Source: Paenisporosarcina antarctica
Lineage (GTDB): Bacteria > Bacillota > Bacilli > Bacillales_A > Planococcaceae
DNA: 64,000 bases
Direction: 5' to 3'
NCBI RefSeq assembly: GCF_004367585.1
Contig: NZ_CP038015.1
Location: forward strand, 3,168,001 to 3,232,000
Part shown: positions 1,918-64,000 of the stretch, in pieces
Layout: the number at the start of each line of letters is the position of its first letter
How positions within the stretch are numbered: position 1 is the first letter of the stretch
The notes under the pieces: generated by a model
The model's input: the letters and a program-made list of their open reading frames with translations, nothing else
Databases searched by the model: none
Told to the model about the DNA's origin: nothing
Translations under genes and position numbers: made by a program

Positions 1918-2259
1918 CTGCACGTTTACATCTGTCGTTTTACTACAACCCAAACTCATATTCGTGGACGAGAGAAAGAATTATTATTTATTACTATCAA
2001 TATTGGGTCTCTTTCATTGAGGAACACTACAATAATTAGGAGATAATTGGTTAGTTGCCCCAGTCATGCTGAAAGTTGCCCCAGTCAAGACAATAGTTGC
2101 CCCAGTCAAACCTAAATTATAGGAAAGCACTTAAATTTGTGTACATTATTTACTAAAACACGTTAAAAGACCGAACAATAATTTCGTCTGTTCGATTTTG
2201 ATCTATGTAGATTTAAATTTTCATGCTAGATCTCTTACTTATTCTTATTAAAACCTATT
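1918..2259. other. Intergenic stretch with array C (21-bp period)
   Basis: About 340 bases without a credible gene. It holds the three-unit array at 2053-2108, described separately. The rest is AT-rich and I see no other structure. A 64-codon frame at 1852-2046 crosses the terminator and is not credible. Confidence 0.6.
2053..2108. repeat. Array C: three 14-bp cores at exact 21-bp spacing
   Basis: The core AGTTGCCCCAGTCA occurs identically at 2053, 2074 and 2095. The 7-base spacers all differ. It has the same geometry as the arrays at 6713, 34410, 42910, 43834 and 63611. The function is unknown. Confidence 0.9.
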
Positions 2260-4550: not shown

Positions 4551-4650
4551 TTAACAGTAGAATTCCTGCGCGTAGCCTTGCTAAAAATCTTGTGAAATAC
4601 TACAACTACACGTTTCCCTCTCCCTAATAAACGCCTTTCTAACACATAAA

Positions 4651-4684
4651 AAAAGCCCTCTTAAAAAATTAAAAGGGCTCTTTT
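4651..4684. terminator. Terminator-like hairpin
   Basis: AGCCCTCTT pairs with AAGGGCT, with A- and T-tracts on both sides. It lies between the ABC remnant and the next gene and may work in both directions. Confidence 0.6.
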
Positions 4685-4760
4685 GGTAATTTTTTTTGTT
4701 GTTATTGTATTAATTCCCATTATCATGTAAATACTTCTTTTAAAAGGGGAGTTGAACACA

Positions 4761-6712: not shown

Positions 6713-6768
6713 TATTCCAACTTGGAGCATGATTTTTCCAACTTGAACCCCAAATTTTCCAACTGACC
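6713..6768 (-). repeat. Array A1: TTCCAACTT cores every 21 bp
   Basis: CCAAC begins at 6717, 6738 and 6759, exactly 21 bp apart. Read on the minus strand, each unit carries AGTTGGAAAA-type cores, and the order of units closely matches array A2 at 63611-63707. Confidence 0.9.
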
Positions 6769-34281: not shown

Positions 34282-34673
34282 GATATTACTTCAAGCCTTC
34301 TGGAAACTGAAAATATCGGTACCCCAGATCAGGCTACTTTGAATACCCTGATGGTTTTGATGGCGGTTTCAATGCAGAATCACTATTTACATCTATCTCA
34401 GCCACTGAGTTTATTCCTGTTCATTTTGATTTATTCCCGTTAGCATGTGTTTTATTCCTGTTCGAACGCAGTTTATTCCTGTTCAAATTGATTTATTCCC
34501 ATTCGCCCAATTTATTCCACAAAAATACCCCGAAACACAAGTGTGTAGGGGCTAATTTGTTTAGTTTTCGCTGCGCTACTATCGGTTCTGTAAGTGCTCT
34601 CCAAAGATAGTAGGGTACATTTGTCTAAAAGTGAAAAGTGCCATCTAGCTCATTAGTACATAATGTTTAATGA
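34282..34673. other. Intergenic region with array B
   Basis: About 390 bases. It holds the six-unit array at 34410-34519 and a weak hairpin (CTACTATC with GATAGTAG, 34576-34614). No credible gene. Confidence 0.6.
34410..34519. repeat. Array B: TTTATTCCTGTTC cores about every 20-21 bp
   Basis: TTATTCC begins at 34411, 34431, 34452, 34473, 34493 and 34512. The core TTTATTCC(C/T)(G/A)TTC is conserved in most units, and the sequence between cores differs. Spacing is 19-21 bp, slightly less regular than the other arrays. Confidence 0.85.
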
Positions 34674-42799: not shown

Positions 42800-42909
42800 C
42801 ATTCTTTTTAGTATCTGCAATCCCACAAATCTAGATAGTGGAGATTCGCCATCTTTCACGTGCCTTTTCTTAGTGAAAACGGATGGCAATAGTGTCGAGC
42901 GAAGGCTCA

Positions 42910-42993
42910 GTTGCAATTATTAGCTGTGACGTTATAAAAATTATCATTCTCGTTGTAATTATCCTACTTCACGTTGTAATAGTTAAATTACGG
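42910..42993. repeat. Array E: GTTGTAAT-type cores at exact 21-bp spacing
   Basis: GTTGCAA, GTTATAA, GTTGTAA and GTTGTAA start at 42910, 42931, 42952 and 42973, exactly 21 bp apart. It is more degenerate than arrays A and C. Confidence 0.75.
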
Positions 42994-43577: not shown

Positions 43578-43914
43578 AATTCCATTGTTTGATTACCGTC
43601 ACTTCCCTAATATTTCTCTCACAAAATTCTCATTTTTCAATATGAATTAGAGCCGCTGAAGAATCTTAATCAGCGGCCATTTACATTCCACATTTCATTG
43701 AATAAGTATCTAAACTCTGCTGAATTAAATGCTAAGCAAACTCATATACCTGAATTCCCGAAGTCAACGGCAATAAAAATATAAACTTTATCGATTTATA
43801 GTTCGAGCAAAACGTGGGGGAAGATATTTTGTGCAACCTGGCGAGTCATAGCGGCAACCTAGCGCACTGTTCAGTCAACCTGAACCAGCTCGGCGCACCT
43901 ATCCATTATATTTA
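43578..43914. other. Intergenic region with array D
   Basis: About 340 bases. It holds a weak hairpin GCCGCTGA/TCAGCGGC at 43652-43677 and array D. No gene seen. Confidence 0.55.
43834..43900. repeat. Array D: CAACCT cores at exact 21-bp spacing
   Basis: CAACCT begins at 43834, 43855 and 43876 (21 bp apart), and a variant ends at 43900. Cores are GCAACCTGGCG, GCAACCTAGCG and TCAACCTGAAC. It is more GC-rich than its surroundings. Confidence 0.8.
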
Positions 43915-63078: not shown

Positions 63079-63257
63079 GATTTCCGTTACAGTCGGACGC
63101 TTTCCGCGGGCGGTCCGTGAGCCTCCTCGTCGCAAGCTCCTGCGGGGTCTCACTAGACTCGCTTTTCCCGCTGGAAAGATATTGGACGAACTGTAATTCG
63201 TCCAATATCCTTGCGACGAGTAACCGCAGGAGCACATGTTTTCTCGCCGCCTTTCAC
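63079..63257 (-). repeat. Dispersed mosaic repeat R4 with inverted insert
   Basis: Read on the minus strand: AAGGCGGCGAG, then an insert, then GCGGGAAAAGCGAGTC, GAGACCCCGCAGGAGC, GACGAGGAGGCTCA and CCCGCGGAAAGCGTCC. The insert contains ACGAGTAACCGCAGGAGCAC in the opposite orientation to its position in R1/R2, joined to a hairpin ATATTGGACGAA/TTCGTCCAATAT. Confidence 0.85.
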
Positions 63258-63610
63258 TACAATCATTCCCCTGTTTAAAAATAAATATAAAAAATCATCC
63301 TATCTACTAAAACCAAAGTACCCACACCCATATTTAGTGGACTATTTTTTATGTCTAATTCATTACTAAAAAAAGATAGATCACTGAACAAAATTCACTT
63401 CCACTGAGGAAACTTGCGATTTTAAAAAGGAAGTCACGAATTCGAATTAACGAGAGTCACATCAAAAATAAATTTTGTTTTAGCATGTTAGTTTCCATAT
63501 ATTAAAAACACCATGAACACTAGGTTCGAGAAGTGAAGAAAATATCGTTACTTTTTCATAACCCACGTTGAAAATTGTGGATTTTTTATTGATACTACTG
63601 GTGAGCGATT

Positions 63611-63707
63611 GGTCAGTTGGAAAATTTAGTGCTCACGTTGGAAAAATGATGGGCCAAGTTAGAATTTTTGGACGCCAAGTTGGAAAAATCCCTCTCCAAG
63701 TTGGAAT
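63611..63707 (+). repeat. Array A2: AGTTGGAAAAAT cores at exact 21-bp spacing
   Basis: GTTGG (or GTTAG) begins at 63616, 63637, 63658, 63679 and 63700, always 21 bp apart. The consensus core is CAAGTTGGAAAAAT; the remaining bases vary. Three units match array A1 at 6713-6768 (reverse strand). Confidence 0.92.
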
Positions 63708-63789
63708 ATATAAAATATGGAAATTATTTGTCTTATTTTTCTAGACAAGTTCTAAGGGGAGTACCAAATCTATATTTTCTTATCTCATT

Positions 63790-63837
63790 AAAAAAAAGAC
63801 CTTTCAGCAGTTCAATTGAACTCCCAAAAGGTCTTTT
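63790..63837. terminator. Long terminator-like hairpin
   Basis: AAAAGACCTTT pairs with AAAGGTCTTTT; the loop contains a second palindrome AGTTCAATTGAACT. It probably ends a gene outside or lost from the window. Confidence 0.6.
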
Positions 63838-64000
63838 GAAATTACAAATGATAGTATTTCAGAAAATTCTCGAATCGTGTGGAAAGGTCCTTCTTCATTC
63901 GTTAAACAGCAACATCAAGAATATTGATTGTCCATCTCTTTAACCATCGTCCTACCCGAATAAGTCAGCGGGAGCTTCAACATAACAAACTTATTTAATT

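Follow-up and report, generated by a model that had tools for sequence, protein, structure and literature searches.

Helix-phased 21-bp repeat arrays near gene ends in Paenisporosarcina and other Bacilli, candidate sites for a protein roadblock behind terminators

Introduction

The genome of Paenisporosarcina antarctica carries short intergenic arrays in which a core recurs every 21 bp, and arrays of the same design occur in several genera of Bacilli. Helical phasing of the arrays is well supported, and the sequence of the core changes by lineage while the 21-bp geometry persists. The result is a non-coding element with a strict geometric rule, present in tens of copies in some genomes. Our tentative reading is that the arrays are predicted sites for a cooperative DNA-binding protein that would block RNA polymerase at the ends of transcription units; we infer the protein, its cooperativity, the roadblock and the effect on transcription alike.

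Results

Array A2 and the other arrays of the window

The window is the whole stretch of DNA analysed, 64,000 nucleotides (C1:3168001-3232000) of a 3.97-Mb genome. Its type array, A2, has five cores on the + strand with starts at 63615, 63636, 63657, 63678 and 63699, a spacing of exactly 21 bp; the original prediction had this period right, free of indels, and placed each start one base too high. The cores at 63636 (CGTTGGAA) and 63657 (AGTTAGAA) are degenerate, and the fifth is a terminal core, AGTTGGAATATA, followed by AAATATGGAAA. Unit-by-unit comparison bears out the prediction that the spacers carry different bases in each unit. The features of the window are as follows.

2034–2050, + strand: class-B leader AATTAGGAGATAATTGG, kept before most class-B arrays of the genus
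2051–2113, + strand: class-B array of three AGTTGCCCCAGTC units
6715–6764, − strand: class-E array of three cores, AGTTGGAAAAAT, with A2-like flanks, in a divergent gap
34406–34503, − strand: class-C array of AACAGGAATAAA cores (+ strand reading TTTATTCCTGTTC), between convergent ORFs
42897–42908, + strand: class-A leader, a small inverted repeat GAGC-GAAG-GCTC
42910–42979, + strand: class-A array of CGTTGTAATTAT cores, some degenerate
43834–43879, − strand: weak sixth array, three GTTG (CAGGTTG) in 21-bp steps
63600–63614, + strand: A2 leader GGTGAGCGATTGGTC, immediately 5′ of the first core
63615–63710, + strand: array A2, class E, five AGTTGGAA-type cores in 21-bp steps
63792–63837, no strand assigned: terminator-like hairpin (AAAAGACCTTT...AAAGGTCTTTT), past the stop (63915) of a − strand ORF and about 90 bp from A2

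The five further arrays expected besides A2 are thus all present, four clear and one weak, and all lie between longer ORFs. Tandem Repeats Finder reports the 2053 array as the only one of period 21 in the window. A lag-22 segment at 4621-4692 was rejected as an array, being a terminator-like stretch. A stretch near CATTGAGGAACACTACA directly precedes the class-B array (window 2010-2033) and is found again, as its reverse complement, before a class-A array elsewhere (L102).

To the left of A2, a − strand ORF whose translation reads like a putative GntR-type regulator turns its 5′ end towards the array. The ORF to the right, also on the − strand, is the one that stops at 63915 and is followed by the 63792-63837 hairpin. 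Given this layout of hairpin and ORFs, A2 sits past the terminator of the right-hand gene, in a tandem gap and opposed in direction; its orientation is against both neighbouring genes. Between A2 and its left neighbour (63090-63245) there is a GC-rich segment, CTTTCCGCGGGCGGTCCGTGAGCCTCCTCG...GGAGCACATG, which we take to resemble another dispersed intergenic repeat of Bacilli. Leaders similar to that of A2 precede the remaining class-E copies, and the A2 leader can be aligned by eye with leaders of the CGTTGTAAT and AGTTGCCCC classes.

Five core classes in one genome

Five core classes can be told apart in the Paenisporosarcina genome: A (CGTTGTAAT(W)AT), B (AGTTGCCCCAGT), C (AACAGGAATAAA), D (AAGCSGAWTAAA) and E (AGTTGGAAAAAT, that of A2). 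Units comprise a core of 12-13 bp and a spacer of about 8 bp, mostly 3-6 units making an array, at dozens of loci. A pattern of three GTTG at 21-bp steps yields 100 overlapping matches in this genome, a few of which look coding; the reversed control for this pattern is identical to it and hence uninformative. Among 25 class A/E arrays, 18 have four units and a terminal core, six have four cores and one has three. Their leaders take forms such as GAGCG..GCTCA or GGTGAGC..TTGGTCA, and a tail like AGTTAAATTATGGAA is frequent. The leaders of A, B and E are mutually alignable by eye, as are those of C and D.

Class-A spacers are alike by position (TGGCTGTCAC, GGAAGGTGAC, AGACCTCCAC and CGYGATCCAC), so the class-A copies represent one dispersed element. 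The proposal that only the core is conserved accordingly holds in A2 and fails in the CGTTGTAAT class. At several loci (L097, L053/L121, L134, L193, L207, L287, L311 and L226) a whole array plus flank is tandemly duplicated, with copies about 140-560 bp apart, or about 1.2 kb in L226.

A scan of lags singles out 21 bp

A scan of 464 kb of the genome, composed of the window and 20 further 20-kb stretches and with 5,000 bases masked, found 12 intergenic segments at lag 21, partly non-independent (L053 alone consists of near-identical tandem copies about 237 bp apart), against 0-4 segments at each of the other 39 lags from 10 to 49. At lag 21, 20 shuffles of the non-coding part gave 0 or 1 segment. 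In intergenic DNA of the 20 stretches (L038-L057) and the window, lags 37, 41 and 42 gave 4, 3 and 4 segments; 42 is twice 21, and lag 37 is without explanation. Averaged over all non-coding DNA, the match at lag 21 is 0.2874, as against 0.2896, 0.2862 and 0.2853 at lags 12, 18 and 24. This mean is barely raised, so the autocorrelation suggested as a check would pick out nothing at lag 21; the signal resides in discrete arrays.

Cores keep helical phase and carry a signal suggestive of duplex-DNA recognition

In the arrays that we fetched, 548 of 627 core-to-core steps of up to 70 bp are of 21 bp; because the loci were mostly found with 21-bp patterns, it is the exceptions and not the 548 that count as evidence. 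Of the other 79 steps, 37 are of 42 bp, and the remainder are of 19 (15), 20 (nine), 22 (three), 40 (two) and 41 bp (three), with 18, 30 and 39 bp accounting for five together. The steps of 19, 20 and 22 bp, 27 in all, break a codon frame and nearly keep the helical face. The arrays have the geometry of phased, iteron-type arrays, with steps of about 21 bp or near a multiple of it on one face. One class-B-like array (L273, from genome G030) has units that apparently alternate between 21 and 20 bp.

The triplet that follows the core is far from random in three lineages. For 84 distinct units of genus g8, AAA (16) and TTT (25) sum to 41 where independent columns predict 12.9, and the mixtures ATT/TAA/TTA/ATA/TAT number 0 against 30.3 expected on the same basis. 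The 127 distinct units from Psychrobacillus (g5) contain 44 AAA and 32 TTT (76 versus 28.9 expected) and 16 of the mixtures (59.3 expected), and 53 Paenisporosarcina (g1) class-E units contain none of these mixtures. AAT is tolerated in all three sets. Class A lacks the rule (TTA 23, 14.5 expected), and class B is without columns of this kind. AAA and TTT are one A-tract read from either strand, which would imply a preference for groove shape, and the toggle between them suggests recognition of duplex DNA. Of the two explanations originally proposed, selection that keeps a distance of two helical turns (cooperative binding by a protein being the example given) fits best: phase is held to within 1-2 bp, the exceptions break the frame and the AAA/TTT toggle recurs.

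Coding and RNA structure

As 21 bp is seven codons, the arrays could be genes, or remnants of genes, for small peptides built on a 7-residue repeat, an origin that we hold to be extremely improbable. We compared stop codons in 83 class-B, 71 class-A, 53 Paenisporosarcina class-E and 68 Psychrobacillus class-E units with column-shuffled versions, and no frame is depleted of stops across all four sets. In the TTG frame there are fewer stops in class A (98 versus 104) and Paenisporosarcina class E (7 versus 12.6), while one class-B frame has an excess (10 versus 5.6). The best case for coding comes from class B, whose leader AATTAGGAGRNAATTGG resembles a ribosome-binding site followed by TTG as start codon (2034-2050, L264-L279). 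Past that TTG, 19 of 25 copies read MVSCPNxxKSCPYxx-like and stay open through the array with the frame kept. Against this, stops in the class-B frame number 13 where column-shuffled units have 13.8 (a comparison of low power), five of the 25 copies stop within the array (L280 already in unit one, and a TGA recurs in each of its units) and L273 changes frame inside it. Classes A and E carry stops in the corresponding frame, every forward frame of the g14 unit AGTTGGTAGATAAAACGTGA contains a stop, and spacings of 19, 20 and 22 bp occur. We hold the Cys-rich class-B peptide to be a coincidence, although these counts do not disprove it as a gene product. A heptad-repeat protein gene was likewise rejected: class B is mostly open in one frame, and a conserved frame, stop depletion and spacing in multiples of three are not general. 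The coding relic that was to overturn the prediction thus finds no support.

The second proposed explanation, a regular RNA motif, fares little better. Such a motif, acting in read-through RNA and on one strand, for instance to bind a protein or load Rho, would suit the location of arrays at 3′ ends, and class-B and g4 arrays that precede a terminator should, to judge by position, be transcribed. Mean fold z-scores are +0.26 for class B (20 of 25 arrays), +0.38 for class A (20/20), +0.09 for Psychrobacillus class E (20/23) and −2.39 for Paenisporosarcina class E (15/15, ten of them below −2), so one set of four folds better than shuffles; A2 plus flanks has a z of −0.36. The class-E value may be attributable to the self-complementary CCAAGTTGG repeated in each unit, palindromes that may suffice to produce it. 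Only one of 14 predicted pairs in the class-A consensus fold has a two-sided change, and Rfam has zero matches in the window. Outside Paenisporosarcina class E, folding does not exceed that of shuffles, and covariation in the class-A alignment is next to none. The interchange of AAA and TTT is also hard to reconcile with a single-stranded motif. Inspection by eye finds the antisense of Psychrobacillus units rich in C and poor in G, a composition shared with Rho sites, and the C-rich face of class B on the opposite strand; the Rho-site idea fits the Psychrobacillus antisense only and was dropped. Overall, an RNA motif is very unlikely.

The design recurs with other cores in other lineages

The proposed scan of relatives for 21-bp recurrence bore fruit: the same design, with lineage-specific cores, is present in many genera of the family and in some other families of Bacilli. 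Of the 151 genomes that represent the family, 16 (in genera g1, g5 and g8) have three GTTGKAA cores at 21 bp; three AGTTG cores occur in 81 of 261 genomes, with at least ten matches to the AGTTG pattern, inspected in part, in some genome of g1, g4, g5, g6, g8, g11, g14 and g17. The taxonomy used places Paenisporosarcina, the genus of the window, and Psychrobacillus in one family; NCBI has them in Caryophanaceae and Bacillaceae. Cores are AGTTGGGCRTAAA or AGTTGGGARTAAA in g8, GTTGGNNGATAAA in g14, GTTGTGCAAAA in g17, CGTTGA(C/T) in G067 (g4) and GTTGAGCG in G155 and G217. Many matches are single and may be chance matches in coding sequence, and we counted them as arrays only in genomes with several; the reversed control of the AGTTG scan is itself array-like in G217, G155, G067 and G003.

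In a class-wide sample 51 of 299 genomes match, mostly with one match each. Putative arrays outside the family, identified by pattern matches alone, occur in G440, G431, G448, G352, G495 and G511; AGTTGGTCGTAAA and AGTTGCCAGTAAA are examples of their cores. Among at least 80 loci matched in another scan, most of those inspected from outside Paenisporosarcina and Psychrobacillus proved to be simple AGTTGGA heptamers or repeats lying in long frames, and we set these aside. Several loci of Oceanospirillaceae DT_73 and the Osedax symbiont Rs2 (L124, L129, L132, L140, L142 and others) carry AGTTGGA heptamer repeats, which seem unrelated to the arrays.

Arrays favour gene 3′ ends and lie close behind hairpins in several genera

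For genomic context we used simple ORF calls on 104 arrays (107 loci were given, 104 having two flanking ORFs) from 11 genomes and six genera. These comprise 47 in convergent gaps, 52 in tandem gaps (36 co-oriented with the genes, 16 opposed) and five in divergent gaps; the gaps at the same loci that lack an array and measure 150 bp or more, a small baseline of 46, comprise nine convergent, 23 tandem and 14 divergent. The shift from divergent to convergent is significant (p = 8e-6), and stays so (p = 9e-5) without G151 and G105, close relatives and hence non-independent of G152 and G181, respectively; the counts are then 32 convergent, 24 co-oriented, 11 opposed and four divergent. The co-orientation bias in tandem gaps behaves similarly (36 versus 16, p = 0.008; 24 versus 11, p = 0.04 without close relatives). 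In the genome of the window (G000), class A/E arrays number ten convergent, 12 tandem and three divergent, and class-B chains six, six and one.

By a simple, crude terminator detector, 61 of the 104 arrays have a forward terminator upstream at no more than 150 bp, and 40 have a reverse one downstream. Where a forward terminator was found in G152, G181, G064 and G067 (26 of 48 arrays), the nearest hairpin ends 10-30 bp before the array in 15, against 3.9 of 26 for a uniform distribution (p = 6e-7). The close relatives G151 and G105 have the hairpin end at this distance in 12 of 21. This short distance is seen in g5, g8 and g17, and in g14 if degenerate units count: there the hairpin is often 52-57 bp from the first exact core, with two degenerate units, found by eye, between them. 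A near-identical hairpin, leader and array recur at five loci in G165 and two in G161 of this genus. In part of g4 and of class B the order is reversed, with the array right after the stop codon and the terminator downstream of it. Within Paenisporosarcina, a terminator pointing at the array lies no more than 160 bp away on either side in 15 of 25 class A/E arrays, and within the same distance in 13 of 27 class-B arrays, a set that includes other species. The tight hairpin distance is absent from g1 arrays, whose link to terminators is loose.

Chromosome-organising sites would offer another account of this placement, in which a nucleoid protein able to bend or bridge DNA would occupy the phased A-tracts and cores, and gene ends would simply be where such sites do no harm. 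The A-tract preference, the helical phase and the avoidance of divergent gaps all agree with such sites, yet the 10-30 bp distance behind hairpins and the co-orientation bias in tandem gaps (36 versus 16) would go unexplained, and class A does without the AAA/TTT rule. We consider this account improbable.

A Rho match above the cut-off was obtained for 150 of 151 genomes. The arrays are therefore no substitute for Rho, and its replacement by arrays was rejected on the ground that Rho is nearly universal. In one genome (G095, contamination 7%), two rho matches with identical scores lie 3.3 kb apart (G095:C3:721223 and 724564).

Orthologous arrays change fastest in their spacers

Psychrobacillus sp. 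NEAU-3TGS (G151) and P. lasiicapitis (G152) allow orthologous arrays to be compared at 47 loci. Whole units come and go: five cores in L302 face two in L320, five in L288 face two in L315, and three in L301 face five in L319. Over ten orthologous pairs, chosen for alignable units, 61 of 192 free spacer sites differ (32%), compared with 26 of 128 in W columns, nine of 96 in the last three columns and 13 of 336 in cores, or 11 of 176 in cores after correction for detection, in which one doubly exact core pair per array, usable for detection, was left out (4-6%). Flanks of 140 bp differ at 346 of 2678 sites, or 166 of 2195 in 16 flanks once four badly aligning ones of the 20 are removed (8-13%). 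In the pair L286/L327, with 95% of flank positions shared, ten of 18 free sites differ and none of 32 core sites. Spacer change therefore outpaces that of flanks (p = 6e-20) and that of cores (p = 2e-10). Cores slower than flanks were not found in these ten pairs: the raw difference (13/336 versus 346/2678) falls away after flank and detection correction (11/176 versus 166/2195, p = 0.65). Their constancy relative to spacers makes the selection on cores implied by the original prediction likely, but slower change than in the flanks cannot be demonstrated once detection bias is removed. For class-B orthologs of G011, G072 and G030, the differences would be explicable by unit loss.

Minisatellites, that is, neutral tandem repeats made by slippage or by conversion between arrays and since diverged, would gain and lose units in 21-bp steps as here. 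Their cores need be no slower than flanks, which is what the corrected counts give, and long arrays of near-identical units do exist in G155 and G217. Slippage nevertheless predicts many unit lengths where the unbiased scan of this genome returns only 21; spacers within an array are mostly unrelated while the cores are alike; and the placement at 3′ ends and behind hairpins is unaccounted for. Such an origin is distinctly improbable.

The main rival to the roadblock reading is selfish spread, somewhat unlikely in our estimate, whereby non-autonomous repeats target terminators or 3′-end sites, the 21-bp units serve as sites for a mobilising enzyme and the harm done by insertion is the sole reason why promoters are free of arrays. 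Class A/E copies in G000 are dispersed with leader and tail in common, the g14 cassettes (five G165 and two G161 loci) look as if copied whole, and array-plus-flank blocks are tandemly duplicated. The scarcity of arrays in divergent gaps is consistent with purifying selection against damaging insertion, and cores that change no slower than flanks are consistent with elements without a cell function. Movement is rare, however: for 21 of 23 loci in G152 and 22 of 24 in G151, the flanks identify a matching locus in the other species, an orthologous persistence that speaks for low mobility of any mobile element. The g5 terminators, moreover, taken with one row for each of the 47 loci (49 rows in all), look gene-specific by eye and yet often stand at an equal distance from the array.

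Discussion

A protein roadblock is the reading that we tentatively prefer. Each 21-bp unit would be one putative site, made of a directly read core (AGTTGGAA in A2), an A-tract and about six free bases. With sites on the same helix face every two turns, 3-6 protein molecules would line up cooperatively. Transcription units would keep their arrays at the 3′ end, in several genera immediately after an intrinsic terminator, where the bound row would meet RNA polymerase pausing in the U-tract, hold it and favour release; the row would also stop polymerase arriving from the opposite side. Hairpin, T-run and protein roadblock would together serve bacteria as a fail-safe or an insulator. During its pause in the U-tract, polymerase occupies some 18-20 bp of DNA in front of the active site, and it would there run into a protein sitting on a core 10-30 bp past the hairpin. 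Counting against the roadblock reading are A2 itself, tandem, opposed and about 90 bp from its hairpin, and the 6715 array in its divergent gap.

The ingredients have precedents. In the text available for PMC12366685, Pol I termination is described as the joint action of a roadblock protein, a T-rich stretch and an RNA hairpin. Proteins bound to DNA block bacterial polymerase, according to the accessible part of a review (PMC10310618), which also carries the suggestion that roadblocks join canonical termination in delimiting transcription units.

It is possible, and we hold it with less assurance, that the arrays constitute an unrecognised transcription-unit boundary of Bacilli, in which helix-phased arrays placed after intrinsic terminators would be read by a fast-evolving protein family, cores would be replaced by lineage with the 21-bp geometry retained and several orthogonal protein-core pairs would coexist in a cell. 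Such a boundary would be the prokaryotic equivalent of roadblock termination. Cores differ by lineage and five kinds occur in one genome, so a single conserved protein cannot read them all.

If the roadblock reading is true, intrinsic termination in these bacteria is more than a hairpin and a U-tract, and the arrays are substrates for studying release aided by a downstream protein and the blocking of convergent transcription. If they are selfish, they are repeats whose conserved property is a helical period and not a sequence. Whichever reading holds, the change of core between lineages makes protein–DNA co-evolution directly testable.

Comparison with known systems

Our searches of the open literature turned up no description of such an element, in line with the original remark that no named element of this form was known to its author. 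As a class of element, the arrays match no named kind that we considered and seem nameless.

REP/BIME, BOX and other small dispersed intergenic repeats are short, multi-copy and built of fixed sequence modules. The arrays are likewise short, intergenic and multi-copy, but what they keep is the helical period, while their sequence varies by lineage. CRISPR and TIGR arrays pair a conserved repeat with a variable spacer and lose units in whole steps. The repeat-spacer design is common to both; here, however, a core of 12-13 bp alternates with a spacer of about 8 bp, there is no general fold and the class-A spacers are largely shared by position. CRISPR proper, with repeats of more than 20 bp and unique spacers of similar length, was rejected on these dimensions and on the occurrence of dozens of short arrays. 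Plasmid-origin iterons are direct repeats of about two helical turns with a conserved core, bound cooperatively and located beside a Rep gene. Two-turn direct repeats with a core are what the arrays share with them; the arrays are instead scattered at gene 3′ ends, and plasmid iterons were rejected on location, the arrays lying at dozens of loci between ORFs along the main contig, as judged by position.

As a mechanism, the arrays would resemble roadblock terminators. Those of Pol I use Sal boxes with TTF-I, or Reb1/Nsi1 sites. Both they, as portrayed in the available portion of PMC12366685, and the arrays have a T-rich stretch and hairpin with protein sites downstream, putative ones in the case of the arrays. 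Pol I terminators are eukaryotic, serve one type of gene and use known proteins, whereas the arrays are bacterial, occupy tens of loci per genome, keep a 21-bp phase and would bind a putative protein. Measured against the spacing of Sal boxes and Reb1 sites, the short distance is found in g5, g8 and g17 (in g14 with degenerate units), is unclear in g1 and has its order reversed in part of g4. Among bacterial roadblock proteins (LacI, PurR, CcpA, CodY, Fis and others, in the accessible part of PMC10310618), a DNA-bound protein stops the elongating polymerase, as would happen at the arrays; the sites described in that part lie downstream of transcription starts, whereas the arrays are phased and placed at transcription-unit ends.
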